From: a virus | Strand: one strand, 5' to 3' | Length of the DNA: 22,623 nucleotides | IMG/VR virus record: IMGVR_UViG_3300047510_000782 | Span: 1-22,623 of that record | Shown: positions 3,210-21,073 of the stretch, piece by piece | How the letters are laid out: each line of letters opens with the position of its first letter | Numbering within the stretch: the first letter of the stretch is position 1 | Program-made: the position numbers and the translations under genes | The notes under the pieces: model-generated | The model's database searches: none | Told to the model about the DNA's origin: nothing | What the model saw: the letters and a program-made list of their open reading frames with translations, nothing else

Positions 3210-3477
3210 GAGCACGATCATCTTCAATGATGATGTTAGGACGGTCAAGATCCTCTTGTGATACTTCGGGCATGGTCAAACGGTCCTCAAGGCACACTTG
3301 CGCGGCTTCAACAAATGTCTGCATCAAATGCGTCTGTTTGGTAATGTCGGCGATTTCAGCTGAACGAGCTAGATCATCTAAGGCCTGCTCGCACTTGAAC
3401 AGACGCTTTTGCAAGTCTAGGATAAGTTCACGAGCCTCTTTAATCTTCTTAACTGACTTGGGATTAATAATTTCCAT
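3181..3477 (-). CDS. Small helical phage protein, unknown function
   Basis: The product is 98 aa. Residues 1-70 are predicted to be mainly helical with heptad-like spacing (KKIKEARELILDLQKRLFKCEQALDDLARSAEI in three short pieces), suggesting a coiled coil or helical bundle. The C-terminus is acidic and probably disordered (EDLDRPNIIIEDDRAHANK). Its ATG overlaps the stop of the VWA gene as TAATG, so the two are translationally coupled and the product may work with the VWA/MoxR pair. No motif identifies a function. Confidence 0.65.
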   Translation of the reverse strand: MEIINPKSVKKIKEARELILDLQKRLFKCEQALDDLARSAEIADITKQTHLMQTFVEAAQVCLEDRLTMPEVSQEDLDRPNIIIEDDRAHANKSAQPV

Positions 3478-4739
3478 TAGTGTGCCTTTTTAGCGTCTTC
3501 GTAATGTGCCCAAATACCAAAGGGCGGTTCAGCATGTTTATTACCTTTAATAATCCATACAGTGTCGCAGTAGTTCTCGTCACCCCATGAACCATACGGC
3601 ATGCCATCAGTGAACACAATAAACTTCTTGGGCTCAATGCCTTGATCTTTCATGTATTCCCAATTAGCCATAAAGTCAGTGCCACCACCACCTTTGGGCT
3701 CGTAGTTAGCAATAGAGTCCATGTTCTCACTAGTAAACAACTGATCATTGTAGACACTAGTATCAAAGCTCCACACACGAATCCGATACTCCTCGTAACT
3801 TTCCATGATACCTTGAATCTCACTCAAGAAGATCTTGAGTTCAGTCTCACCGATGCTACCAGAAGTATCAATAGCTACACAGATATCAATCTGCTCACCT
3901 GGCTTCATGCCAGGCAAAATGGCATCCATATGCCAACTACGACGACTGGGCTTGAGCCAGGTGTAGTCTTGCTTGATGGTGCTTTGAATTTGTTGTAGCA
4001 ACAATTCACGCCAGTCAATCACCGACTCAGTCATGTCCTGGATTAGTCGCTTGACACCAGCAGGAACATTACCTGCGCCTGCGGCTTGAGCTGCTTGTAA
4101 TACAGCATCTTTGATCTCGTCGCGCAGTTCCTTGGCTAGTTTTTTGCCAATTCGCGGTCGGCCGCCTTCACCATCCTCATTCTCACCTTCGCCTTCACCA
4201 TCCATGTCCAGGTGCTCATCTAGCACCTGCTTCATGAGCTCGCTTAGTGGAATCTTCTCTGCGTTTTGGTACAGGAGATCGTAGACTTCTTCAAAGCTCA
4301 TACCGCGGTACTTGGTGTTTAACAAGATAGGTACCTTGGTAATCTTGGTACCAATATTGTGATCTACCAAGTCTTGGTTAACGCAATAGTCTGCGGCAAT
4401 GTTACTGAGAATAGGGTCACGATGTTCACGACGGCTAAGGTGATCATAGACTACGTGCAAGACTTCATGTCCAAACAAGAATTCACACTCGCGTAGACTA
4501 AGCGAATTGATAAAGTTGCTGTTATACCAAAAATGACGTCCATCAGTGGCAGCAGTGGCGCACCACTCATCTGCGTTCTTGAGCTTGAGACGAGTAGCCA
4601 AGTTACCAAAGAATCCCGCCTTGAGCAAGAGACCCACACGAGCAGTAATCAACTTCTCTAGTGCGGCTGCGTTGACTTTGGGGTCGGTAACAGTTTTCTT
4701 AGCAGACTTTTCTGCTACAGTAGTATCTTCACGTGCCAT
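3477..4739 (-). CDS. Metallopeptidase-like protein with C-terminal VWA domain
   Basis: The 420-aa protein has two parts. The N-terminal half carries a zincin-type HExxH motif with a further His (HEVLHVVYDH, residues 91-100), as in the DUF2201-N/putative metallopeptidase family. The C-terminal half is a von Willebrand A domain with an intact metal site: DTSGS at 291-295, GGGTDF at 351-356 and FTDG at 376-379. A Gly/Glu-rich acidic linker lies at about 178-193. The MoxR-type AAA+ gene is directly upstream, and MoxR ATPases commonly act with VWA partners as remodelling chaperones. The pair is known in T4-like environmental phages, where its role is unsettled. An AAGGAG lies 5 bases before the ATG at 4739, and a near-consensus sigma70 promoter precedes it. 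Confidence 0.9.
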   Translation of the reverse strand: MAREDTTVAEKSAKKTVTDPKVNAAALEKLITARVGLLLKAGFFGNLATRLKLKNADEWCATAATDGRHFWYNSNFINSLSLRECEFLFGHEVLHVVYDHLSRREHRDPILSNIAADYCVNQDLVDHNIGTKITKVPILLNTKYRGMSFEEVYDLLYQNAEKIPLSELMKQVLDEHLDMDGEGEGENEDGEGGRPRIGKKLAKELRDEIKDAVLQAAQAAGAGNVPAGVKRLIQDMTESVIDWRELLLQQIQSTIKQDYTWLKPSRRSWHMDAILPGMKPGEQIDICVAIDTSGSIGETELKIFLSEIQGIMESYEEYRIRVWSFDTSVYNDQLFTSENMDSIANYEPKGGGGTDFMANWEYMKDQGIEPKKFIVFTDGMPYGSWGDENYCDTVWIIKGNKHAEPPFGIWAHYEDAKKAH

Positions 4740-4762
4740 ACATGCTCCTTTGTGATATTTAC

Positions 4763-4791
4763 ATTATATGCGATAACCAAAAGGCAGTCAA
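4763..4791 (-). promoter_or_regulatory. Sigma70-like early promoter of the VWA gene
   Basis: On the minus strand, TTGACT (4791-4786) and TATAAT (4768-4763) are separated by exactly 17 bases, near-consensus for host sigma70. The predicted start is about 15 bases before the AAGGAG of the gene at 4739. A stem-loop sits 3 bases upstream of the -35, giving a stem-loop/promoter cassette. Confidence 0.88.
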
Positions 4792-4794
4792 CTT

Positions 4795-4810
4795 GGGGGC
4801 CGAAGCCCCC
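4795..4810 (-). terminator. UUCG-capped GC hairpin between the MoxR and VWA genes
   Basis: Arms GGGGGC and GCCCCC enclose TTCG as read on the minus strand, the extra-stable cUUCGg tetraloop. It begins 7 bases after the MoxR stop. No U-tract follows on the minus strand (AAGTTGACT), so termination may be partial. Its other likely role is as the stem-loop of a promoter cassette. Read on the plus strand it is followed by TTTT. Confidence 0.75.
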
Positions 4811-4817
4811 TTTTGGA

Positions 4818-5918
4818 CTAGTTAGCATTGCTAACAGCGGCTACCACGTACTTGCCAAAACGCTTGTGAAACTCATCAAAATGCTTGAGTTTGCCAGGCA
4901 CAAACGGAATGTTGTAGGTAGTAATTGCAACACGAGCCGCCATAACTACAAGCTCAGTATTGAAATTATCCATAATGAAACGGAAGAAGTTATCGGCCAT
5001 TCCATTCCACTTGTCCAACTTGCCATTGGCCTTGTCGTAGGCATCCTTAAGCTCGTAGCACAGGCTAATAGTCAGCGAGTACATAGCAGACACTTCTTTG
5101 ACTTTGAGCTCGGTGACCTTGCCATTTAGTACTTCAATAGGATCGGGCATCTGTCCACTTACCTTGCGGTGAGCCATAAACTTGACCGCCATACCTTCGC
5201 CAACAGCACCAGCCACTAAGTCAGTAAGACCGGCGTCATTGTCCTCGTCAAGTAACTCACTGACAAAGGTCCAGCTACGCGGAGTAGCAAAACTACGACC
5301 TGCTGAACGCGGGTCAAAGTCAAACAAGTCGCCTTTAGCAAAACTCAAGTAGCCAACTACATCTTTATGGATCCGATTGTTCACAGCCCAAGTCTGCCAA
5401 GAGTCAAAGTCCACACGCATTTCTAAGTGAACAAAACGATTAGCAAGAGGACTTGGCATACGATAAGTAACACCTTTGTCGCTGTCGCGATTACCTGCTG
5501 CCACCATAACTACATTGTCAGGTAGCACATACTTGCCTACACGACGATTCAAAATCAGCTGATAAGCCGCAGCCTGGGTAGCCGGAGGAGCCGAATTCAT
5601 CTCGTCCATAAACAGTACCACGATGGGATACTGGCTAGCAGTCTCAGCGTCGGGCAGTTCGATCGGGGGAGCCCAATCCATTTTGCCATTGTCTTTGTTG
5701 TAGAACGGGATACCACGCAGGTCGGTGGGCTCCATCTGACTCAAACGAATATCAATCATGAGACCGCCAAGATCTTCGGCAATGCCAGCAACTAATTCTG
5801 ACTTGCCAATACCCGGAGGCCCCCAAAGAAAAACGGGACGTTGACGCTTGAAGCAACGAAGTAAAGCACGACGAGCTTCTACACTAGTAACTGTACGATT
5901 TTCGCTTACTACTGCCAT
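4818..5918 (-). CDS. MoxR/CobS-like AAA+ ATPase
   Basis: The 366-aa protein is an AAA+ ATPase of the MoxR type. Walker A is GPPGIGKS (33-40), Walker B is VLFMDE (101-106), sensor 1 is AGN (141-143) and a likely arginine finger is in PSPLANRF (Arg161). After the core (about 10-250) comes a helical C-terminal region. Such phage proteins are often annotated cobS from similarity to the cobaltochelatase ATPase, but the VWA/metallopeptidase gene next door points to a MoxR-VWA remodelling pair. Its target is unknown. AAGGAG lies 6 bases before the ATG at 5918. The 11 bases CACAAAGGAGC before the start are shared with the leader of the VWA gene. A consensus-like promoter precedes it. Confidence 0.92.
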   Translation of the reverse strand: MAVVSENRTVTSVEARRALLRCFKRQRPVFLWGPPGIGKSELVAGIAEDLGGLMIDIRLSQMEPTDLRGIPFYNKDNGKMDWAPPIELPDAETASQYPIVVLFMDEMNSAPPATQAAAYQLILNRRVGKYVLPDNVVMVAAGNRDSDKGVTYRMPSPLANRFVHLEMRVDFDSWQTWAVNNRIHKDVVGYLSFAKGDLFDFDPRSAGRSFATPRSWTFVSELLDEDNDAGLTDLVAGAVGEGMAVKFMAHRKVSGQMPDPIEVLNGKVTELKVKEVSAMYSLTISLCYELKDAYDKANGKLDKWNGMADNFFRFIMDNFNTELVVMAARVAITTYNIPFVPGKLKHFDEFHKRFGKYVVAAVSNAN

Positions 5919-9752: not shown

Positions 9753-10180
9753 CTAATTTCGGTTCTACCGTCACCCAAATTTTTTCTATTTAATCTACGC
9801 ACATCCGGATCGGCTTGCTCTTGTTCATAGTATTCCAAAACTACACTACGGCAAATTTCCTGAAACCAACGATCCACAATGTCAGATTCGGGCTCATTGG
9901 CCTGACGTTGATAGCCAGCTCTAACCAAATTGGCAATGAACTTGTCATTCCAATCTAGTTCAAATGCGCCAGACCTTAGATCATCAGGGTCCAAGCTAAA
10001 ACTAACTATGGTAACATATGGTTCACCTTGCTGAGTGGCCAATTCCTTGGCACTCAAGGTCTGTTTTGACCGACGCGGTGTTTTGGGTTTTGGTTTCGAC
10101 TCAGCAGGCAACGGTGTAGGGTGTTCAAGCCCTTGCGATCCTACGTTTAGTGCTCGTACTAGACGATCGAAAAAGCTCAT
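9749..10180 (-). CDS. Conserved T4-like phage protein, unknown function
   Basis: The product is 143 aa starting MSFFDRLVRAL at 10180, in an ATGA overlap with the queE stop; an upstream in-frame ATG at 10189 is less likely. Residues about 15-45 are Pro/Lys-rich and probably disordered. The folded part contains LATQQGEPYVTIVSFSLDP, then GAFELDWNDKFIANLVRAGY, then DIVDRWFQEICR and EYYEQEQADPD, and ends GDGRTEIS. This arrangement matches, from memory, an uncharacterised protein widespread in T4-like environmental phages. No active-site motif is evident. It ends the metabolic operon, directly before the RNase H promoter. Confidence 0.75.
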   Translation of the reverse strand: MSFFDRLVRALNVGSQGLEHPTPLPAESKPKPKTPRRSKQTLSAKELATQQGEPYVTIVSFSLDPDDLRSGAFELDWNDKFIANLVRAGYQRQANEPESDIVDRWFQEICRSVVLEYYEQEQADPDVRRLNRKNLGDGRTEIS

Positions 10181-11034
10181 GTTCCCCACTCGTTCTTAAA
10201 GAGCGGCACCTGAAGTCGATCACTGTATCGTAAGCCATGTTTCATGCAAGCTAGTGCCACGTTCTTGTTGTTCAAGCTATATACACTTTCAACACCGCCC
10301 ACTGGCATTAGATATACTTCGCCGTTAAAACCTGCGTTTCTGAATTCCATGGTAGCACGTAAGGCATCTTGTATGTCTTGTTCTGTGGCTACTACAAACT
10401 TGAGATAACACCAACCTATCTCTTGGTATTGGCATACAATGTCGGGTTTGATGGCATCTTCCCAACGCTCACCACTGGCAGGCAATTTTGCACTGATACT
10501 AAAAGTCAGGCAATCGCGTGAACGATCAGGATTGCGATTGGTCCATGCTATTAAATAGCGTTTAAAATCTGGTGTTAACTGTTGAGTACCATTGGTTTCA
10601 AAGGTTATTTCTTTGAGCCCCTGCATAAACTCATGCTCGAGCAAGTCTGGAAAAGCACGTTGCCAACCTAGCAAGGGTTCGCCGCCGGTAATAACTAAGT
10701 GTTCCCGGGTCCATTTATGAAACGGTAAGAGTTCTTTGATGCGTTCGACGATCGCCTCTGTTGTAAGTAACGGTGAAAGGTCCTTGAACCTAGGATCCCA
10801 ACTAGCGTAAGAATCACAACCGGTACTAACAAGTGGGAGATCTCGATACTGCTTAAACTCTGCAATACGATCTGCAACTTGGTTTCGCTCATTTGATTTT
10901 TCTCCTCGTGGCATTCCGAATCCGTCACAAGTGAAATTGCATCCAAATGTTCTTAGGAATACGCTAGGTACCCCCATGTATCGGCCTTCCCCTTGTACGC
11001 TATAGAATAGCTCACTTATTTTGATCTTGCTCAT
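10177..11034 (-). CDS. queE: 7-carboxy-7-deazaguanine synthase QueE (radical SAM)
   Basis: QueE converts 6-carboxy-tetrahydropterin to 7-carboxy-7-deazaguanine (CDG) with SAM and a 4Fe-4S cluster. The start ELFYSVQGEGRYMGVPSVFL, the GGEP motif (117-120), FETNGTQ and ISAKLP are all typical. The likely start is the ATG at 11034 (285 aa), four codons inside the longest frame. Its cluster motif is unusual: FGCNFTC supplies Cys32 and Cys36, but the third cysteine, in TGCDSYASW (Cys73, equivalent to the WCDT position), comes 36 residues later. The insert explains the length beyond the roughly 220 aa of typical QueE. It is coupled to its downstream neighbour by ATGA and overlaps the upstream gene by 23 bases. 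It works with FolE and QueD encoded upstream. Confidence 0.93.
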   Translation of the reverse strand: MSKIKISELFYSVQGEGRYMGVPSVFLRTFGCNFTCDGFGMPRGEKSNERNQVADRIAEFKQYRDLPLVSTGCDSYASWDPRFKDLSPLLTTEAIVERIKELLPFHKWTREHLVITGGEPLLGWQRAFPDLLEHEFMQGLKEITFETNGTQQLTPDFKRYLIAWTNRNPDRSRDCLTFSISAKLPASGERWEDAIKPDIVCQYQEIGWCYLKFVVATEQDIQDALRATMEFRNAGFNGEVYLMPVGGVESVYSLNNKNVALACMKHGLRYSDRLQVPLFKNEWGT

Positions 11035-11230
11035 TATTGATTCCAAAATGATTGATTATGTATGATCCAGGCGTATATGCTGGACATTGGTAATTCATAA
11101 CTGGACTATGATTTACCACACGAGCACATTCTAGCACAACTAATTCAATAAGTCTACGACTACGCTCGGGTTCGTATGTTCGACTGAACCCGGCTTGTGC
11201 TATAAGTTGTTGAGCAAGTTCGTTATTCAT
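11012..11230 (-). CDS. Small conserved phage protein of unknown function
   Basis: The product is 72 aa. A helical pattern NELAQQLIAQAGF, then RRLIELVVLECARVV, then a C-terminal GSYIINHFGI resembles a small family common in T4-like phages (elements: AQQAGF, then L-x-ExVxxECAxV, then IxxHFG). The function is unknown. It starts inside the end of the upstream 70-aa gene (8-base overlap) and runs 23 bases into queE, so all three are probably co-translated. The C-terminus is polar (NNEQDQNK). Confidence 0.72.
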   Translation of the reverse strand: MNNELAQQLIAQAGFSRTYEPERSRRLIELVVLECARVVNHSPVMNYQCPAYTPGSYIINHFGINNEQDQNK

Positions 11231-11435: not shown

Positions 11436-11700
11436 ATATATTTGACCATTGTTTAAGTTTTAGTTTTTTGGCTGCTGTAGCAGCAACCAAGCGATCTCTG
11501 TCAACAATGCCTTGTTCTACCAGAATATCAATCATGGCTAATACATCTCCAATCTCTACTTCTAGGTGTTCGGCATTGGTAGCAGGTTTACCGGGTTTGA
11601 AGTTATCTAGGCCAAATCTAAAACATTTACTAACTGCCTGTGTAACTTCGGCGCATTCTTCTTGTAAAATTAACAGCGTTTCTCTAACTCGAGTATCCAT
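11422..11700 (-). CDS. mazG: MazG-like nucleotide pyrophosphohydrolase
   Basis: MazG-type enzymes split NTPs or dNTPs to monophosphate and pyrophosphate, and phage versions may adjust nucleotide pools or alarmones. The frame is open from 11784, but the recognisable domain starts at the ATG at 11700 (92 aa). The metal-binding pattern is present: EECAE (14-18, ExxE type) and EIGD (49-52, ExxD), in two helices separated by a Gly/Pro-rich loop (GLDNFKPGKPA). At 92 aa it is a single-domain protein of about the usual phage size. It overlaps the DadA-like gene's end by 17 bases and is in the middle of the deazaguanine operon. The substrate is unknown. Confidence 0.85.
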   Translation of the reverse strand: MDTRVRETLLILQEECAEVTQAVSKCFRFGLDNFKPGKPATNAEHLEVEIGDVLAMIDILVEQGIVDRDRLVAATAAKKLKLKQWSNIYENA

Positions 11701-12874
11701 TTGTAATCTCTTGTGTGATTTGTTTAGCAGTAAATGGAGCCAAGGTCCAACCAAGGTGTCCATGTCCAGTGTTATAGTATACACGTGAATTGCGTTGACT
11801 GCGACCTACTCGGGGCATCATGTTAGGTGTCATTGGTCGTAAACAAGCCCAACTTGAATGATCACTGGCGTCAATCTTGGGAAAGTTTTGATGTACCCAA
11901 CGCAGCAACGGTTCAATTCGGTCACGCCTGATATCATAATTTTCGCCAGCTAATTCAGCTGTACCAGCTACCCTGAATCGTCCACCAAAGTTAGCCGACA
12001 CAATCTTGGCTTGATCATCAAGCAGACTAGTTCTAGGCATGGCAGCATGTGAAGCTGCATCTTTGATGTTAATGGTAACACTATAGCCTTTTACTGGATA
12101 AATGTCTAATCTGTCGCCTATGCTACGAGCCAATGGTTCACTGCCAACGCCGGCACTGATTACTATACAATCGTGATAAAGAGACAGATCTTTAATGTCT
12201 GCTGTGTAACTGTATCTAAAAGTAGCATGATATTTGGTTTCTAGTATTGTTGCTAATTTGGTACAGAATTTGTGTATGTCACCGGTCCAATCTGATTCTG
12301 TATAAGCACCGCCTAGAATACTTTGACAATTATATAGAGTGGGTTCAATTTCACAAACAGCTCGTTGATCTAGAATTTCCCATTCGCAGCCATTGGCTCG
12401 GTACATTTCTTGTACCACAGTGGCTGCCTGCATGTATTCAGGATCTCGATAGATGTGTAGTATGCCGGAACGCATACGATCAAATTCAATGCCTTCGTCG
12501 CGAATAATTTCTTCATATAGATCTCTAGCTGCAAGACCCATGCGAATGGTTTCACCGGTATTTCGAGCATGATCATTGTTGGCGGTATGGTAGAGAAATT
12601 TAAACACCCAACGCAGTTGATCGGGATCTATACCGGGTCTAATCAATAATGGAGCGTCCTTTTTCAGCAACCACTTGACACCTTTGATGACATTGCCCCA
12701 GGTATTCCAAGTTTCACTGTTGCTTACACTAATTTGTCCGCCATTGGCATAACTAGTGCGCTGAGCAGGATATCTTTCCTGTTCGTAAACAGTGACTTGA
12801 CAGCCTGCTCTAGCTAGATAATATGCTGTGGTAAGGCCGGTTATCCCGGCCCCTACTACTGCTACTTGAGTCAT
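11684..12874 (-). CDS. dadA: DadA-like FAD-dependent amino-acid oxidoreductase
   Basis: The 396-aa protein matches D-amino acid dehydrogenase DadA (DAO family), which deaminates D-amino acids to 2-oxo acids. The FAD-binding GAGITG is at 8-13. YANGGQISVSNSETW, the WLLKKDAPLLIRP block, RPMTPNMMPRVG near the C-terminus and NTGHGHLGWTLA are all characteristic. Length is slightly below the bacterial enzyme (about 430). It is unusual as a phage gene. It is coupled by ATGA to the YhhQ gene and lies between yhhQ/queD/folE and mazG/queE, so it may modify the deazaguanine base or an amine substituent, or simply affect host amino-acid metabolism. The family is clear; the phage role and substrate are not. 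Confidence 0.88.
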   Translation of the reverse strand: MTQVAVVGAGITGLTTAYYLARAGCQVTVYEQERYPAQRTSYANGGQISVSNSETWNTWGNVIKGVKWLLKKDAPLLIRPGIDPDQLRWVFKFLYHTANNDHARNTGETIRMGLAARDLYEEIIRDEGIEFDRMRSGILHIYRDPEYMQAATVVQEMYRANGCEWEILDQRAVCEIEPTLYNCQSILGGAYTESDWTGDIHKFCTKLATILETKYHATFRYSYTADIKDLSLYHDCIVISAGVGSEPLARSIGDRLDIYPVKGYSVTINIKDAASHAAMPRTSLLDDQAKIVSANFGGRFRVAGTAELAGENYDIRRDRIEPLLRWVHQNFPKIDASDHSSWACLRPMTPNMMPRVGRSQRNSRVYYNTGHGHLGWTLAPFTAKQITQEITNGYSS

Positions 12875-13497
12875 TTTGCCTCTACTGGAGATTCAACAAG
12901 TTTCTTTTGAAGATGATTTAGTAACAGACCATAAGCTGGTAAGATCACTAACAAGCTAACAATGACTTTGCTAATCGAATTATTAGTAGCCACAATGTGC
13001 CAATTAGCAGCCATGAACTCGTTCTCTCCACCAGCAAATGCTGTGAAGAAGAATACATAAGTGTCAATAAATGTGCTGGCAATTGAACTCAATGCTGGTG
13101 CGATCCACCATGTGGTGTAACGCTCACGGAAGTATTGAAACACATATACATCAAGTAGATTACTGATAAAGTAAGCCATACCAGATCCTAGGCCAATTCT
13201 AAATGCCACAGAGTCCGGCGCTCCGCCTGCTTTGACTACCACCATACTGACCACAATGGCTGGAATAAACGCAAGAGCAATAACAGCACGCCCGGTTTCC
13301 TTGCCTAATAATCGTACAGTAAGGTCAGTTAGAACTACCACCAGTGGAAAGGTAAACGCTGCTGCTGCCAGAGGTGCACCAAACACTGTGAATTTGAATT
13401 GTACGATATAATTGCTAACAGCAATAATAATGATGTGTAGTAACATTAGTTTGTAGGCTAATGTACGATCCACACCTGCTAACATACGATCAAACAT
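12871..13497 (-). CDS. yhhQ: YhhQ-type queuosine-precursor transporter (VUT family)
   Basis: The 208-aa integral membrane protein fits the Vut_1/YhhQ family, which imports preQ0 and preQ1. About six hydrophobic spans are visible (near residues 15-32, 38-58, 70-90, 100-121, 128-152, 172-192). Characteristic blocks are the polar FTFPLVVVLTDLTVRLLGKETGRAV, SGMAYFISNLLDVYVFQYFRER and SSIASTFIDTYVFF (with conserved Asp, Asn and Thr in membrane). The family is found in other phages with deazaguanine DNA. GGAG is six bases before the ATG at 13497. It is coupled to the next gene by ATGA and separated from queD by 12 bases. It offers a salvage route alongside FolE-QueD-QueE. Confidence 0.9.
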   Translation of the reverse strand: MFDRMLAGVDRTLAYKLMLLHIIIIAVSNYIVQFKFTVFGAPLAAAAFTFPLVVVLTDLTVRLLGKETGRAVIALAFIPAIVVSMVVVKAGGAPDSVAFRIGLGSGMAYFISNLLDVYVFQYFRERYTTWWIAPALSSIASTFIDTYVFFFTAFAGGENEFMAANWHIVATNNSISKVIVSLLVILPAYGLLLNHLQKKLVESPVEAK

Positions 13498-13509: not shown

Positions 13510-14022
13510 TTATAGGCCTTCGAAAAGGTCTTCGTTCCATTCTCTATGACCTTCTCTGAAAGCCATATTACTCTGTGTCTCTCTTACTTCTACACGATAA
13601 CACCATAAACGATTGTGCTCGCCCAGTCCCCACATTTCGGGAATGTAAACACCATTGACATACTTGTAAAGCATGTCGGCTAAGCCTTCACAACCTAACT
13701 TAGGCAGTACTGTGAGTTTAGCAAGTTTCTTTGATTCCAGCAACTTGAATGTTTCGAACTCAGGGTCATCGCGGCTGACCAGTAAGGTATGATCAAATTG
13801 GTCTTCTAAGATCTTTTTGAGTTCCTTAAGGCCACCATAATCGGCAGCCCAATTGCGTACATCTAAGTCGTTGGTACCAAAGTAAAACTTCATTGAAAAA
13901 CTATAACCGTGTATCATGTTACAGTGACTATCTGCTCGCCACTGTCGATACGCACATGGAAAAGCATCGTGATACTCTTTAGTGCTGGTATATTTGTATA
14001 CTACTGGTTCAAACTTGGTCAT
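13510..14022 (-). CDS. queD: 6-carboxy-tetrahydropterin synthase QueD (T-fold)
   Basis: QueD turns dihydroneopterin triphosphate (made by FolE) into 6-carboxy-tetrahydropterin. The 170-aa protein has the pattern of a known QueD subfamily: FPCAYRQWRADSHCNMIHGYSFSMKF, then WAADYGGLKELKKILEDQFDHTLLV, then VLPKLGCEGLADMLYKYV, then a VRETQSNMA end. The catalytic Cys34 and His38 (CxxxH) are present, with Asp77/His78 in the DH pair. The usual HGH is HGY here (Tyr40), so the third zinc ligand is unclear; HGY is typical of this subfamily as I recall it. GGAG lies upstream of the ATG at 14022. A TCTAAATA candidate late promoter lies 43 bases before it. Confidence 0.92.
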   Translation of the reverse strand: MTKFEPVVYKYTSTKEYHDAFPCAYRQWRADSHCNMIHGYSFSMKFYFGTNDLDVRNWAADYGGLKELKKILEDQFDHTLLVSRDDPEFETFKLLESKKLAKLTVLPKLGCEGLADMLYKYVNGVYIPEMWGLGEHNRLWCYRVEVRETQSNMAFREGHREWNEDLFEGL

Positions 14023-14102: not shown

Positions 14103-14411
14103 TTAAACAGTTTTCATATGCTCTCGCAACTTATCCCAATCGATGTCAAAGGTAACTTTACCATCGTTGTCTACTGTGCGTACACTGTAGTTGCCTACAT
14201 GTACGCCAGGTTCTTCGGGTTTGACATCAAACACCTCAGTTTTAACCTTAGTAGGTTTTTTAGCCTTGGGTGCTGACTCTTGAACCTTTTGAGCAGTTTT
14301 CTTAGATACTGGACCATCGTCCTTGGGATAGTCGGTTTTAGCAGGTTTCTTGGCTGGAGCCTTAGCAGCAGGCTTTGCTGATGCTTTAGCAGCAGGTTTC
14401 TTAGTTGCCAT
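14103..14411 (-). CDS. AKP-rich histone H1-like phage protein
   Basis: The product is 102 aa from the ATG at 14411, which overlaps the folE stop as TAATG and has AAGGA upstream; the longer open frame from 14438 lies inside folE. Residues 2-30 are almost only Ala, Lys and Pro (KKPAAKASAKPAAKAPAKKP), like the tail of histone H1 or bacterial HU/AlgP-type proteins. A second Lys-rich stretch follows at about 40-60. The C-terminal part (GVHVGNYSVRTVDNDGKVTFDIDWDKLREHM) looks folded and acidic. Binding to DNA through the basic tail is likely from composition. Its place between folE and queD suggests it is made with the modification enzymes. Confidence 0.75.
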   Translation of the reverse strand: MATKKPAAKASAKPAAKAPAKKPAKTDYPKDDGPVSKKTAQKVQESAPKAKKPTKVKTEVFDVKPEEPGVHVGNYSVRTVDNDGKVTFDIDWDKLREHMKTV

Positions 14412-15157
14412 TATCCATGTCCTTTCATTGATAAGCAAATGTCGTAAAACTCTTTCTTCAGTGCTGGGTCTGACTCAAAAGCACCTAACATGATAGCAGT
14501 GGTCATGTCTGACTCATGCTCACGTACTCCACGCATGGTCATACAATGATGTTCAGCCTTCACTACGACGGCAATATTTTCGGTCTTGGCATAATCGCGG
14601 AGTGCAGACGCAATCTGTGTGGTCATTTCCTCCTGTATCTGCGGTCTCTCGCAGATGTGATGCACGAGCCTGTTGAATTTGCTCAAACCAATTACTTCGC
14701 CTTCGGGCACTATCCCCACCCAGCATCGTCCAACGATATTTTGAAAATGGTGAGCGCATGTTGATCTGATACTAATTGGTCCTGTGGTATAAAGGCTTTT
14801 ATAGCCCAAGTTGGGAAATGCTGTGACTTTAGGAACTGAACGATACCGTCCACTAAAAGTCTCACGTACAAACATCTTAGCCACACGCCTTGCAGTGTCT
14901 TGCGTGTTATGATCATTAACAGTGTCGATTACTAAACTATTTAGTACACCCTGAAATTGACCAGCTACCTCATCAACCAAGCGATTGATTTCTTCGTCGC
15001 TGTTGATGTAGTCTGCGATGTTGTCGTTAGCGTGGAATCTGGCTCCTGCTTGGCGGATCCTGTCACGAATTACTTCGCTCATGGGTCTACCAAATACAGC
15101 ACCTTCATAGCCAGGATGGTAAGGTGCTTCTTCTACTAGTTGTTGATTGTGATTCAT
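14411..15157 (-). CDS. folE: GTP cyclohydrolase I (FolE)
   Basis: FolE opens GTP to 7,8-dihydroneopterin triphosphate, the first step toward deazaguanine as well as folate. The 248-aa protein carries the zinc ligands: Cys134 and His137 in STCAHHF and Cys205 in EHHCMTMRGV, which correspond to Cys110, His113 and Cys181 of the E. coli enzyme. The block GIVPEGEVIGLSKFNRLV is diagnostic. The N-terminal 55 residues are longer than usual and variable. It is the first gene of the operon running to queE, after a sigma70-like promoter with an internal TCTAAATA. No strong ribosome site precedes the ATG at 15157 (GGAG lies about 5-8 bases upstream as CGGAG). Confidence 0.95.
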   Translation of the reverse strand: MNHNQQLVEEAPYHPGYEGAVFGRPMSEVIRDRIRQAGARFHANDNIADYINSDEEINRLVDEVAGQFQGVLNSLVIDTVNDHNTQDTARRVAKMFVRETFSGRYRSVPKVTAFPNLGYKSLYTTGPISIRSTCAHHFQNIVGRCWVGIVPEGEVIGLSKFNRLVHHICERPQIQEEMTTQIASALRDYAKTENIAVVVKAEHHCMTMRGVREHESDMTTAIMLGAFESDPALKKEFYDICLSMKGHG

Positions 15158-16590: not shown

Positions 16591-17781
16591 TCAATATTTA
16601 GCTGGTGCCAGGTGCTTTCTATAGTCCTTGGTCATACGCAGCATATGCTCGCCTTTGCCTTCTAAGATATCACAGATACGATCGATGGTACCATCGTTGT
16701 AGTCACTGATCCGTCCCATGTTTTTATGTGGATGACGCAGCAGTGGAATTAACTTTTGTACAGCATCATCTAGGCTCCAAGGTACATAAAGTCGTTCGTG
16801 ATCATTGGCAAAAGTTTCAGGAAAGCTGCGATAAGCAGGATACAGAACATTAGCGCCAAGTGTGTCGGCTTCACTAACTGTGTTTGACACCCAATCTTGT
16901 AGAGCACAATTAAAAAGAACCCTAGTATCATTAAGTAGATCATAGTAGTCATTCTTTTCTAAGTCCTCATAAATGACCAATTTACCCTCTGCTTGTAACT
17001 TTCTAGTACGTTCCATATAACTTGCGTTATTACTACGTAGTTTGGCACCAGAAAACACAGCGAATTCTACCCAAGGCAAATAATCTAGGGTATCAGCAAG
17101 TGCATGATAGCGTTCGATTAGATCCATATAAAAGTCGGGCTGTTTTTCTTGATCCCAACGTGCCGCAAAGCCTACACGAAACGCACGATCTTCAAATGGT
17201 TTAAGTGGTCCTAGTACACGACCACGTACTTCATTCTTGCCAAATGCCAGACCAGAAATATTGTAGATTGGCGCCGACCAACCTGCAATCTTCATGTGTG
17301 CTACCATTTCTTCATTAGTGGCCAGCACACCTGTAACAAAGGAATTAACCATGTGCTCATAACAAGCCATCCAGCCTTCCATATTCCATACATGAACGAA
17401 GTCATCAGGGTCAATGGCTTGTGCAAGACAACGCACAAATATCCTAGGGCGATGAGTGGCGTCAACTTGATCGAGAATGTAAGGTAAGCTCTCGATGCCT
17501 GGTTGAAAAAGGTCTTCAAAGTAGATAACATCGTCACTGGTTACTGCTCCTGCTTTCATTAACTTGACCAAGTTCATCATTTGGCTCATGCCAAAGTAAC
17601 TGCGTCCGTGTGCGTCTAGCACCTGTCCAGTTACAATGGCTTGATCATTACTCAATGTTTCTCCCTCAACAATCAAGTAATTGATCCCTCTACGTTCAAA
17701 CACCGACCGATTCCACTCTTGTAATTGTAGAGTGTAACGAGCCTTATAGGGCTCTAGTCCCATGTAGAATAACCTACGCAT
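16591..17781 (-). CDS. Glycosyltransferase-like protein (probable GT-B fold)
   Basis: The first 42 codons of the longest frame lie inside the upstream gene; the likely start is the ATG at 17781 (MRRLFYMGLEPYKARYTL), giving 396 aa and an 8-base overlap. The N-terminal half has alternating strands and helices, with an IYFEDLFQPGIESLPYIL segment and HVWNMEGWM. The C-terminal half (VGFAARWDQEKQPDFYMDLI, then FNCALQDWVSNTVSEADTLGANVLYP) resembles the donor-binding half of GT-B glycosyltransferases, where a Glu in the SEA segment contacts the sugar nucleotide. I recall similar proteins in T4-like environmental phages annotated as glycosyltransferases. Donor and acceptor are unknown; galE nearby suggests UDP-galactose. 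Confidence 0.72.
   Translation of the reverse strand: MRRLFYMGLEPYKARYTLQLQEWNRSVFERRGINYLIVEGETLSNDQAIVTGQVLDAHGRSYFGMSQMMNLVKLMKAGAVTSDDVIYFEDLFQPGIESLPYILDQVDATHRPRIFVRCLAQAIDPDDFVHVWNMEGWMACYEHMVNSFVTGVLATNEEMVAHMKIAGWSAPIYNISGLAFGKNEVRGRVLGPLKPFEDRAFRVGFAARWDQEKQPDFYMDLIERYHALADTLDYLPWVEFAVFSGAKLRSNNASYMERTRKLQAEGKLVIYEDLEKNDYYDLLNDTRVLFNCALQDWVSNTVSEADTLGANVLYPAYRSFPETFANDHERLYVPWSLDDAVQKLIPLLRHPHKNMGRISDYNDGTIDRICDILEGKGEHMLRMTKDYRKHLAPAKY
16595..16602 (-). promoter_or_regulatory. Candidate late promoter (GCTAAATA)
   Basis: The minus-strand octamer GCTAAATA overlaps the last codons of the glycosyltransferase-like gene, about 20 bases before the ATG of the exported-protein gene. It shares the CTAAATA core seen upstream of folE, queD and the clamp gene. 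It encodes Ala-Lys-Tyr in the upstream gene, so coincidence is possible. Confidence 0.35.
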
Positions 17782-18004
17782 AGCGTCGGGCCTGCTTGAT
17801 AGCGTAACCCCAGTTATCGCGTGGGTACTTACCAGCTTGGTAACGCTGGAAATCAGCGTAAGGGCTGTGGTTGTTGCCAAGATGTGCTTCATTAAACACA
17901 TAGCCAAACTCGCGACAGAAGTCGCGATAACGATCTAACTCGTCAAAGATGCGTGTGACTTCGGGTTTGAATTGCAAATACTTCTTGATGCCTTTTCTAG
18001 ACAT
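17774..18004 (-). CDS. Small conserved phage protein of unknown function
   Basis: The product is 76 aa, basic and aromatic-rich. RKGIKKYLQFK is followed by a helix EVTRIFDELDRYRDFCREFG, then YVFNEAHLGN, SPYADFQRYQAGKYP and a basic C-terminus (YAIKQARRYA). The block LDRYRDFCREFGYxFxE followed by a Y-x-xFxxYxxGK pattern is one I remember from small genes in T4-like phages, with no function assigned. AAGGAA lies upstream of the ATG at 18004. It overlaps the glycosyltransferase-like gene by 8 bases and follows the T-fold gene after 11 bases. Confidence 0.7.
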   Translation of the reverse strand: MSRKGIKKYLQFKPEVTRIFDELDRYRDFCREFGYVFNEAHLGNNHSPYADFQRYQAGKYPRDNWGYAIKQARRYA

Positions 18005-18015
18005 TTCATTGTTCC

Positions 18016-18471
18016 TTATACTGAGATAAGTTGTGGTTGAGATTTATTATATGCGATTGTGGCACCATTCTCTCCGTCTTCGGCCACGGTGATTTCGATG
18101 TCACGATTGGGATAACGACTAGCAATGGCCTCATAAAGGTCATCACTGATCATTTCACAACTCTTGTAGTTTAGTTCCAACGTCCCGCCAGCATACAACT
18201 TTTCTAGCCAGCGTTTGAATTGGATAAACTCAATATCCCTGTCGTTGTGAAATACTTCAATAGCTACTGTAAAGTGAAAGATGTGTCTGTGTGGTGTTCC
18301 TAAGAACGAGACATCGTACTCGTCGCCAGTGGCTAAAGCCGGGTCTGTAGCTGCCGCTGGATATTTGTGAATACCTTCCTTGCGAAAAGTAACCCAAATC
18401 ATGCGACGAGCACGATCTCGAATACGAGCTCGTTGTTCTGTTAATGCCTGGTTTCGTTGTTGATTATCCAT
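18016..18471 (-). CDS. Second T-fold (QueD/6-pyruvoyl-tetrahydropterin synthase-like) protein
   Basis: The product is 151 aa. It follows the QueD plan: an early His in EGIHKYP (His35), an HxH pair in PHRHIFHFTVAIEV (His61, His63), an acidic strand-helix DIEFIQFKRWLEKLY, SCEMISDDLYEAI, and a C-terminal ITVAEDGENGATIAY. The three His could bind zinc as in QueD. The catalytic Cys of QueD that normally precedes the HxH pair is not visible, so the reaction may differ, or the protein may bind a pterin or nucleotide without QueD chemistry. Residues 1-25 are a basic helical extension. It is the last of four overlapping genes headed by dpdA (8-base overlap with the nuclease gene). Fold assignment is inference from pattern. 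Confidence 0.65.
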   Translation of the reverse strand: MDNQQRNQALTEQRARIRDRARRMIWVTFRKEGIHKYPAAATDPALATGDEYDVSFLGTPHRHIFHFTVAIEVFHNDRDIEFIQFKRWLEKLYAGGTLELNYKSCEMISDDLYEAIASRYPNRDIEITVAEDGENGATIAYNKSQPQLISV

Positions 18472-19027
18472 AAATTACAAGGTCTCTAAAGGTTGATGTA
18501 CTAGCGTTAATGATATTGATCATAGCTTTCTTGCTTAGTCTAATTTTATACGATTCTGTATCTTTATGCAACTCTGCATAGCAATATTGAGTTCCGTAAA
18601 TTGAGTCTGGTAATTTACAAGTCACATCTAATTTCCTGGCTTTATTTTGAATTTCTTCATAGCCAGTTTTAACCATGTCTTGAATAAAGTCAGGTGTGAA
18701 ATCATATACATCTACTGCTGTTACCACACTGTTTTCGTCAACTGTGACACGTATTTGATATTGTAATTTTGCTGCTACTAAACTATCTTTAAATGGAACC
18801 GTACACAAATCATAAAAATTCATCGAACCAATGGTATGACCGGATGTGGCATTGATGCGTCTTGATTTTAATTCAACTGCATATTCAGGAAAATCAGCTC
18901 CTGGGCCTCGATTAAGAGGCCAACCTTCTGATTCGAAATAATTGTGAATAAACACACCTCTAGCAGCATCATCACGAGGCATTTGTCGACCTATTAGGCC
19001 TGTTTTTACAGATTTAAGTTTTAGCAT
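18464..19027 (-). CDS. MutH/Sau3AI-like endonuclease
   Basis: The product is 187 aa. Residues 43-54 (GADFPEYAVELK) reproduce the catalytic core of MutH, where E. coli has a DFP-x-LGVELK sequence: Asp45, Glu52 and Lys54 have the same spacing as Asp70, Glu77 and Lys79. This is the PD-(D/E)xK nuclease site of the MutH/Sau3AI group, which cuts at GATC. The remainder has strands and helices with a Lys-rich C-terminus (YKIRLSKKAMINII), but no known DNA-recognition signature I can confirm. It is shorter than MutH (229 aa). It overlaps its neighbours on both sides within the dpdA operon. A role in degrading unmodified host DNA is inference; GATC specificity is not shown. Confidence 0.75.
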   Translation of the reverse strand: MLKLKSVKTGLIGRQMPRDDAARGVFIHNYFESEGWPLNRGPGADFPEYAVELKSRRINATSGHTIGSMNFYDLCTVPFKDSLVAAKLQYQIRVTVDENSVVTAVDVYDFTPDFIQDMVKTGYEEIQNKARKLDVTCKLPDSIYGTQYCYAELHKDTESYKIRLSKKAMINIINASTSTFRDLVIYG

Positions 19028-19521
19028 ACTTGATCTTTAGTGTATTGATCCCAGTCGGTGAAATGTTTAGAGTTCATTAAATCATGTACTCTATGACACC
19101 ATACACCAGGGTTGGTTGCTTCGAAATCTCGGTCGTCGATCTTTAATACTGCATTATAATTTAGTAACTCTATGTATGGTAGTTTAGCACTAATCATAGG
19201 AATAAATCTACGATATTCGCATAGGCCACCGTCATGAAATTCTTCCAAAGCTGATATATCTAGATCTAAAGTACACCAATACCCAGCATCTAGAAAAGGT
19301 TTTATCATAGTCTCCCAACTGCGCCAGGTATCAACTTCGGGCTTTTTCGGAAAACTTTGATTTGCGCCAAAGTAAATATGCTCACAACCTAGTAGGTGAG
19401 TTTTGATTTCATCAACAGGTTGTACACCTATAACAAATAAAGTCTGTTTGCCCAGGGCTGGAGTATGTTCTACTTCAATGCCATGGAAAAATTTCACCGT
19501 GTCAAATCCGGGTCTGTCCAT
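19021..19521 (-). CDS. Conserved protein of unknown function in the dpdA operon
   Basis: The product is 166 aa from the ATG at 19521, one base after the dpdA stop; the longer frame from 19563 lies within dpdA. It has a strand-rich layout: DTVKFFHGIEVEHTPALGK, TLFVIGVQPVDEI, GCEHIYFGANQSFP, YWCTLDLDISALEEF, FIPMISAKLPYIELL, NYNAVLKIDDRDF and NPGVWCHRVHDL. Several conserved-looking acidic and Cys residues could bind metal, and the alternation recalls half of a TIM-barrel, but I cannot assign a family. I remember similar hypothetical proteins in T4-like phages. Its position between DpdA and the nuclease makes a part in base exchange, target choice or immunity plausible, not shown. Confidence 0.75.
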   Translation of the reverse strand: MDRPGFDTVKFFHGIEVEHTPALGKQTLFVIGVQPVDEIKTHLLGCEHIYFGANQSFPKKPEVDTWRSWETMIKPFLDAGYWCTLDLDISALEEFHDGGLCEYRRFIPMISAKLPYIELLNYNAVLKIDDRDFEATNPGVWCHRVHDLMNSKHFTDWDQYTKDQVC

Positions 19522-19522
19522 G

Positions 19523-21073
19523 TTAAATCTCAAATAGTGAAGTGTTAAGGTCAGGTTCGGCACGTTCTTTCTTTACACGATCCACTGAAACTGAACCTTC
19601 AATTTCAATGTGTTGATCTGCTTGTGTGCGAGAATTCAGTGCCTTCTTGCCAGCGAAACCACGAGTACCTACAATCTGCATCCAGTATTTGTGATAGCCG
19701 GCGATAATAGCTTCGGACTCCTGTCTAGTAGGTGCAGCGAAAATAGCCTCTACAATATCTTCAAAATGATCGGCACCGGGCGCTTCATATTCCATCATGC
19801 GCGGTCTTGTTCCGGAATCAAATCTACGATTGGCTTCTTGCACTGCGGTAATATGCATCCAAACATTGTGTGACATCAGTAAACAATAACTGAAACTATC
19901 CCAACTGGTTCGACCTTCTTTGCCGTTTTTATTGAGATCCCCGGGCTTATAGTAACATATATCACGCATGGTGAGCAAGCTACTAATTGGACTATCCTGC
20001 CAACTTTCGAATATTTTGTCAGCTAGTACCCCAGTACTCCACTGACGTGTATCGGTTGCATATCGCTTATCGTCGGCACTAGGCGCCATTCGATAACTCC
20101 ATTTGTCCAAGTTGGGATAAGTGTTTTCGTAATAGACCTGGCCGTTAGCGGTTGCCAAGAATGGACTAGCACAGTCAAAGCTGATGGTGAAGTTGGGGTT
20201 TGCGTACTTGCGTATTGCTCGCTGTATGACTGTAAGTAATACCGCCCATTCGAGTTTACTGGTTCCCAAAAAGTGCATCCAATCATGTATACCCTCCTGT
20301 AATAATCCATCGTATTTAAGTGCAACTAGCCTTTTGAGAATAAGTTCAACGTCGCACATGTTTTGACCGCCCATGGCCCAACCATCAAAATGGCGTCCTG
20401 GGTATTGCTTGGGATCTGAGTAGTGCTTCATGATTTGATACCATGATTCGGCACTGGTATGGTTATCACCTTGTAATACATTGAGAAAACGTGCACCACC
20501 ATTGGCCACACCGCGACGATTATTGATAAAATATTCGTTGTTGAACTTGGTAGCATCCACAGCTTCGGTTAGTGTGCTGATTTTGCAAGCAGCACTGGCC
20601 TTTTTATCATGAATAACCCAGGTAGGAATATCTAAAATCATGCCATAGTCCGAAATGCTGTCAAGCCATTTCAACACTGACTCGCGTTTGTGCTGTGCTC
20701 GAGCACATCCAGAATTGGCTTTCCAATCACCTTCCCAAAGTCCTTTGGCAATCTGGAACCCACCCGAATCACCTAGCATGAATGTGCCTGATGCTCGATT
20801 ACGTACCATGTCCTCAGACCAATCCTGTTTGGTTAAATCCAAGTTGGCATGGCCTCCTGAATACAAACTCCACTGATATGTATACAGACCTTGTTGAGCA
20901 TTTAACCAATTTAGCTGCTCCATGTCTGTGAGCCCTTGTGGAAAACGTGCAGGATCCACATAAGGACCTGTTACAGGATCACGCTGTTTCCCTATAAAGG
21001 TAGCATAGAAACCAGAAATAGCCGGCAGAAACACGGCATAGTCCTTTTGTTTAGCTGTTAGATTGTCTTGCAT
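19523..21073 (-). CDS. dpdA: DpdA, 7-deazaguanine DNA transglycosylase (TGT family)
   Basis: DpdA exchanges guanine in DNA for a 7-deazaguanine base; it is related to tRNA-guanine transglycosylase (TGT). In this 516-aa protein the TGT landmarks are visible in order: GDSGGFQ (101-107, base-binding Asp102), ILDIP (Asp148), VLQG (Gln201), GWAMGG (231-236) and SFDCASP (298-304) with the nucleophile-position Asp300. The CxCxxC zinc motif of TGT is not seen, and the C-terminal 200 residues are unlike TGT, as in a DNA-acting enzyme. AGGAAG lies upstream of the ATG at 21073; the start overlaps the previous gene by 23 bases. It is followed after one base by an unknown gene and then the MutH-like nuclease. 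Which deazaguanine it inserts is unknown. Confidence 0.9.
   Translation of the reverse strand: MQDNLTAKQKDYAVFLPAISGFYATFIGKQRDPVTGPYVDPARFPQGLTDMEQLNWLNAQQGLYTYQWSLYSGGHANLDLTKQDWSEDMVRNRASGTFMLGDSGGFQIAKGLWEGDWKANSGCARAQHKRESVLKWLDSISDYGMILDIPTWVIHDKKASAACKISTLTEAVDATKFNNEYFINNRRGVANGGARFLNVLQGDNHTSAESWYQIMKHYSDPKQYPGRHFDGWAMGGQNMCDVELILKRLVALKYDGLLQEGIHDWMHFLGTSKLEWAVLLTVIQRAIRKYANPNFTISFDCASPFLATANGQVYYENTYPNLDKWSYRMAPSADDKRYATDTRQWSTGVLADKIFESWQDSPISSLLTMRDICYYKPGDLNKNGKEGRTSWDSFSYCLLMSHNVWMHITAVQEANRRFDSGTRPRMMEYEAPGADHFEDIVEAIFAAPTRQESEAIIAGYHKYWMQIVGTRGFAGKKALNSRTQADQHIEIEGSVSVDRVKKERAEPDLNTSLFEI

Follow-up and report, generated by a model that had tools for sequence, protein, structure and literature searches.

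A MutH-fold nuclease gene located in a predicted 7-deazaguanine DNA modification module of phages

The window, i.e., the whole 22.6-kb IMG/VR virus contig analyzed here, carries a series of genes on its minus strand in the order DpdA-like, X180, nuclease, P151, glycosyltransferase-like, FolE, QueD, YhhQ-type transporter, and QueE. The DpdA-like gene (19523..21073) encodes a putative base-exchange enzyme with a DSGGFQ motif; hhalign indicates a remote relationship to the TGT family (E = 5.7e-5 to a TGT-like protein of Acidovorax phage ACP17 and E = 1.7e-3 to E. coli TGT), and no Pfam match or PDB sequence match was obtained. "DpdA" is used here as a working name for a protein that appears remotely TGT-like. 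X180 (19021..19563), the conserved partner directly upstream of the nuclease gene, has 116 relatives in viral contigs, and most of the best 80 of these adjoin a DpdA-like gene; relatives are also found in PA5oct-like phages and in ACP17. X180 homologues align from Met15, so that translation probably starts at 19521. P151 (18016..18471; phrog_17812, E = 3.7e-34), the conserved partner directly downstream of the nuclease gene, has relatives in 26 phage records, including the deazaguanine clusters of PA5oct and ACP17. The glycosyltransferase-like module gene (16591..17907) carries this similarity label in most loci, and its relative in PA5oct matches PF00534 (E = 1.1e-3). The remaining genes encode FolE, a GTP cyclohydrolase I (14411..15157; PF01227, E = 3.8e-46), a QueD-like protein of the PTPS family (13510..14022; PF01242, E = 3.1e-16; TIGR03367, E = 1.4e-8, below cut-off), a YhhQ-type precursor transporter (12871..13497; PF02592, E = 2.1e-22), and a QueE-like radical SAM enzyme (10177..11046; TIGR03365, E = 4.2e-14, below cut-off; PF04055, E = 7.3e-7).

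These genes are predicted to form a module for 7-deazaguanine DNA modification, which would replace guanine in the phage's own DNA. FolE, QueD, QueE, and a TGT-family base-exchange enzyme are likewise components of the deazaguanine pathways of phages 9g, nt-1, and CAjan (PMC6884629); the 9g pathway differs in that the DpdA-like protein of the window presented no match to 9g DpdA. In ACP17, relatives of X180 and P151 adjoin deazaguanine genes, while in Pseudomonas phage PA5oct the DpdA-like, glycosyltransferase-like, P151, and QueE genes are found together and X180 is located elsewhere. Sequence motifs of preQ0 in CAjan have reportedly been described. The window (16591-17907), PA5oct (L183, 9626-10687), and ACP17 (L242, 7721-8749) each have a glycosyltransferase-like gene next to either the DpdA-like gene or P151, and the retention of this gene hints at a glycosylated base. 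The deazaguanine region also contains, between the transporter gene and a MazG gene, a gene for an FAD-dependent oxidoreductase of the DAO family (11684-12874), which may have an aminomethyl side chain as its substrate.

A 72-kb contig, IMGVR_UViG_3300042554_001676 (G001), matches the window from position 17770 to the window end with 98.8% nucleotide identity and 99% protein identity. Pfam searches did not find QueC in G001, nor was it found among the subset of window proteins scanned. At 17770-17772, the two contigs drop in identity (98.8% to 93.5%) at precisely the point where G001 carries an extra gene (L003, 4620-5613) encoding a 305-aa protein with zinc-finger-like domains (DUF4379 and DUF723), perhaps a homing endonuclease. 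In G001, FolE is also directly followed by a SegE-type GIY-YIG gene (L003, 359-1213), which is absent from that place in the window.

The nuclease gene (18464..19027, minus strand) is an exact open frame of 187 codons for amino acids with an ATG start. The encoded protein contains D45, E52, and K54 (GADFPEYAVELK), and the spacing of this D-x6-E-x-K motif is identical to that of D70, E77, and K79 in E. coli MutH, as the earlier note had claimed. The motif by itself carries little weight (3/90 window ORFs of at least 50 aa contain it); it is fold, family, and conservation that lift the nuclease above chance. Relatives were found inside loci that had been retrieved by similarity to neighboring genes (22 homologous ORFs, 13 of them distinct), and a 16-row alignment of the window protein and 15 relatives yielded an AlphaFold2 model with a pLDDT of 88.7 and a pTM of 0.81; a single-sequence model of the window protein (pLDDT 43.7) was too poor for use. 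Foldseek searches with the AlphaFold2 model placed five MutH chains at the top (best E = 2.1e-7) and Sau3AI sixth. MutH-DNA complexes were the best matches among solved structures, with a VIA-align Z score of 14.2 over 173 residues at 3.2 Å, i.e., over nearly the whole length of the protein (MutH, PF02976; PDB 2aoq, 2aor, and 1azo). Sau3AI and its C-terminal domain followed (Z = 11.0, 9.9, and 9.0 for PDB 4pxg, 7xm0, and 2reu), as did the MutH-like monomeric enzymes BcnI (PDB 2odi, Z = 9.0) and MvaI (PDB 2oaa, Z = 8.8), both weaker matches than MutH. By hhalign, the family profile matched a profile of E. coli MutH and two phage MutH/Sau3AI-like proteins (92%, E = 5.8e-7) in an alignment covering both the catalytic Asp-Glu-Lys residues and the Ser-x-Val-x-x-Lys motif, to which MutH K116 belongs; the match to E. 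coli MutH alone was weak (E = 0.011). The previous call of a MutH/Sau3AI-type nuclease is therefore well supported with regard to fold, and this ORF is a genuine gene for a MutH-fold nuclease.

Searches with the window nuclease in Pfam, PHROGs, NCBIfam, and PDB sequences provided no useful match, nor did PADLOC run on it and three relatives; the same was true for INPHARED phages queried with the window nuclease and two relatives, for bacterial and archaeal genome contigs queried with module members only (query A3), and for PA5oct queried with one relative (query A2). A further INPHARED search presented chance-level matches alone (E of 2 or worse). The best BFVD match was a protein of Synechococcus phage S-CAM7 (TM 0.66); a profile search of two S-CAM7 isolates, with KU686212 scanned in full, showed no relative at E < 0.5 among the matches listed. 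One relative's contig matches PF02976 with E = 4.9e-4 and 14.7 bits, below the cut-off of 23. Judged by these comparisons, the nuclease is part of a phage family outside every library model. It is built on a MutH chassis and is not filed here as a member of the MutH/Sau3AI family, because it lies below the Pfam cut-off, has no Lys at the position of MutH K48, and in the window protein has His at the position of MutH E56.

The family comprises 31 distinct members found within and outside the module. Asp45, Lys54, Arg56, Lys87 (the counterpart of MutH K116), Gln91, Ile115, Gln116, and Arg163 are invariant in 31/31 members, and position 52 is Glu in 29 and Asp in two. Position 28, which corresponds to MutH E56, is Glu in 27/31 members, Asp in one, and His in three, i.e., the window protein, G001, and L198; His28 calls for caution as to whether the window protein itself would be active. 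Nine of ten nuclease pairs presented dN/dS values between 0.06 and 0.23 (the tenth pair was saturated), and the family is therefore under purifying selection.

Similarity to the nuclease alone retrieved 42 contigs, a count that includes near-copies; the gene occupies the module slot in 34 of these, in some of which the contig end truncates the module, and lies elsewhere in eight. Query A3 consisted of module members only and favors module members in retrieval, and the loci fetched through module genes, namely the best 80 of 563 and the best 80 of 116, are skewed toward relatives of genes in the window itself. The previously proposed link between nuclease and deazaguanine thus stands as far as residence in a DpdA-like module is concerned, without its GATC part. 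The eight outside contigs, all fragments, of which six distinct rows were kept, present phage-genome neighbors such as a UvsW-like helicase (identified by eye), MazG, and a T5orf172-domain gene; no DpdA-like gene, FolE, or QueC was found in them. In one outside phage (L211), a gene for QueD (9887-10390; 353 bits to the window QueD) lies about 4 kb from the MutH-like gene, and no DpdA-like gene was detected in its 90-kb fragment. ParB/DGQHR-like genes, recognized by eye, lie one to three genes upstream of the nuclease gene in three outside relatives (L211, 3049-4092; L213, 3341-4480; L214, 1072-2274), with one weak ParB PHROG match and one DUF6551 match among them.

Module genes retrieved 102 distinct X180-P151 junctions; the nuclease gene is present in 13 of these, so that most modified relatives manage without it. 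Many of the remaining junctions hold other cargo, mostly not nuclease, and empty junctions exist as well. Across L007-L165, the X180-P151 interval presents itself as a hypervariable cargo slot, with genes (classified by eye) for a 99-133 aa family and for radical SAM, methyltransferase-like, and sugar-nucleotide-enzyme-like proteins. Where the nuclease gene is present, it mostly begins within the end of X180, with an overlap of 4 nt in 17/24 junctions and of 7 nt in two (the window and G001); the five junctions that depart from this partly reflect the use of the longest-ORF start. Divergence of the nuclease is faster than that of its neighbors but parallels it (Mantel r = 0.43 with the DpdA-like protein, 0.59 with X180, 0.42 with P151, and 0.61 with g12062, as compared to 0.47-0.68 among module genes), and 24/25 module members form one group in the tree (support 91/93). 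The other module member, L053, groups with outside members on a long branch.

Long residence in the module, catalytic conservation, and co-divergence favor an activity that can coexist with modified phage DNA and probably complements it. We therefore propose, with a probability of roughly 45%, that the MutH-fold nuclease attacks unmodified DNA and spares the phage DNA modified by the module. According to this proposal, a small PD-(D/E)XK endonuclease or nickase of MutH fold, whose family resides mainly in the 7-deazaguanine module, would cut or nick DNA that does not carry the phage's modified guanine, be it that of the host chromosome, of rival phages, or of plasmids or satellites; DNA on which the DpdA-like enzyme has acted would escape. 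Starting from the observed fold, family, conserved catalytic residues, module location, and purifying selection, we infer the catalytic activity, the sparing of modified DNA, and the biological target. The nuclease is kept beside a base-replacement system that would probably protect phage DNA, a functional link that we likewise infer. Nucleases of phage T4 attack DNA whose cytosine is unmodified, and T4 endonucleases II and IV together with hydroxymethylcytosine illustrate the principle proposed here, a phage nuclease sparing its own modified DNA; these enzymes have other folds and act with another base. Counting against the proposed role are the eight of 42 contigs in which the gene lies outside the module, the 13/102 junctions, the His28 of the window protein, and the only remote TGT likeness of the DpdA-like protein. 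Phage deazaguanines protect against host restriction (PMC6884629). No description of a MutH-like nuclease alongside 9g-, nt-1-, or CAjan-type deazaguanine pathways was found in the literature searched, and no report of a phage nuclease/deazaguanine pair was recognized among the open-licence papers searched.

More tentatively, the arrangement might constitute a restriction system carried by phages, with a DpdA-like base replacer in place of a methyltransferase and the MutH-fold nuclease as the enzyme that destroys DNA in which guanine has not been replaced; the specificity of the nuclease would possibly change between phages as it outpaces the evolution of the module. Sau3AI resembles this arrangement in its MutH fold and in being a nuclease beside a protecting modification (putative here); it differs in having two domains, as compared to one short domain in the window nuclease, and in that the partner here is DpdA-like and not a methyltransferase. 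With regard to the gene coupling of type II restriction-modification, the nuclease gene lies in the DpdA-like module in 34/42 contigs and elsewhere in eight, and most modules have no nuclease. Where the nuclease is present in the cluster, the deazaguanine shield would become part of a weapon, with host or rival DNA cleared without self-harm.

The main rival, which we consider somewhat unlikely, is that the nuclease is a mobile accessory endonuclease of the homing type in large T4-like phages, which would cut related phages that do not have the gene and spread into their insertion slot, with the modification genes as bystanders. The sporadic presence of the gene in a hypervariable slot, the occurrence of relatives at other phage sites (in one of which the gene overlaps the T5orf172-domain gene upstream), the possibility that L053 represents a second entry into the slot, and the putative homing endonucleases nearby in G001 all agree with such mobility. 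However, the single group formed by 24 of the 25 module members and their divergence in step with the module genes argue for long residence and not for frequent jumps, and the remaining slot cargo is mostly not nuclease; we know of no homing enzyme with a MutH fold.

An unlikely alternative is a nickase that has a part in replication, recombination, repair, or packaging of the phage itself and is unrelated to modified bases. MutH nicks DNA during repair, the module adjoins the phage polymerase gene in relatives, and one outside relative lies by the UvsW-like helicase gene; however, most close relatives of the phage do not have the nuclease gene, unlike what is seen for a core replication function.

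It is more improbable still that the nuclease is a GATC-specific enzyme of the Sau3AI/MutH type from which deazaguanine protects the GATC sites of the phage, as the earlier note had suggested. The shared fold and catalytic spacing, the likely correspondence between R163 and MutH R184, and the frequency of GATC in phage DNA are consistent with this suggestion; the other DNA-reading residues do not support it. In a published assay (PMC10940147), each of the MutH substitutions K48A, R184A, and Y212S abolished MutH-dependent editing at GATC. Among the 31 family members, none has Lys at the K48 position. R163, present in 31/31, was paired with R184 by eye on a strand-then-helix pattern, since the hhalign alignment stops short of this region, and it is followed by 24 residues to the end of the window protein, as compared to 45 residues after R184 in MutH, so that the segment holding MutH Y212 is apparently missing. 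As far as these alignments indicate, only R184 of the three residues has a likely counterpart, and GATC specificity is therefore not transferable from MutH. BcnI and MvaI recognize CCSGG and CCWGG, so that a protein of MutH fold need not read GATC; GATC would thus not be the default expectation for the recognition sequence of the nuclease, which further differs from MutH in being phage-borne and inside a modification module.

The window contains 126 GATC sites, as compared to 84.5 expected from mononucleotide composition, 95.9 from a maximal-order Markov model (1.31-fold, z = 4.0), and 64.5 from dinucleotide shuffles; coding sequence (18,975 bases) presented 109 sites versus 85.8 expected from synonymous-codon shuffles (1.27-fold, z = 3.9), and G001 370 sites versus 266 and 297 expected. 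GATC is thus frequent and not avoided, as had been stated, but over-represented across the window under every null model tried and not merely near chance; the first 1.41 kb holds seven sites (5.4 expected) where six had been listed, position 1297 having been overlooked. Ratios to Markov expectation were alike in 17 nuclease-positive (1.10) and 127 nuclease-negative (1.14) loci, which were retrieved by DpdA-like or X180 similarity, exceed 9 kb, overlap, and in some cases repeat a contig; missing GATC avoidance is therefore not diagnostic of the nuclease, and GATC statistics were rejected as evidence on cleavage at GATC. No D12- or N6/N4-class methyltransferase that could provide Dam-type protection was found in G000, G001, G012, and G013, all of which are fragments. 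TGCA and AGCT are depleted and CATG is enriched relative to Markov expectation in the window and G001 and, alike, in nuclease-positive and nuclease-negative relatives; TGCA/AGCT depletion was rejected as a hint of a recognition site as it is present in both sets.

A modification-dependent nuclease directed against the modified DNA of other phages, suggested by the location in a modification module, is highly improbable, since such an enzyme would also turn on the DNA of the phage that encodes it unless the rival carried a different base, and the AlphaFold2 model of this 187-aa, one-domain protein presents no separate base-reading domain.

Apart from the proposed attack on unmodified DNA, the family adds to the MutH fold dozens of natural variants with altered DNA-reading parts, which may be useful for studies of how fold and specificity are related. 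Elsewhere in the window (3477-5918), a gene for an AAA ATPase adjoins one for a DUF2201 metallopeptidase/VWA protein, resembling a MoxR-VWA-like pair.
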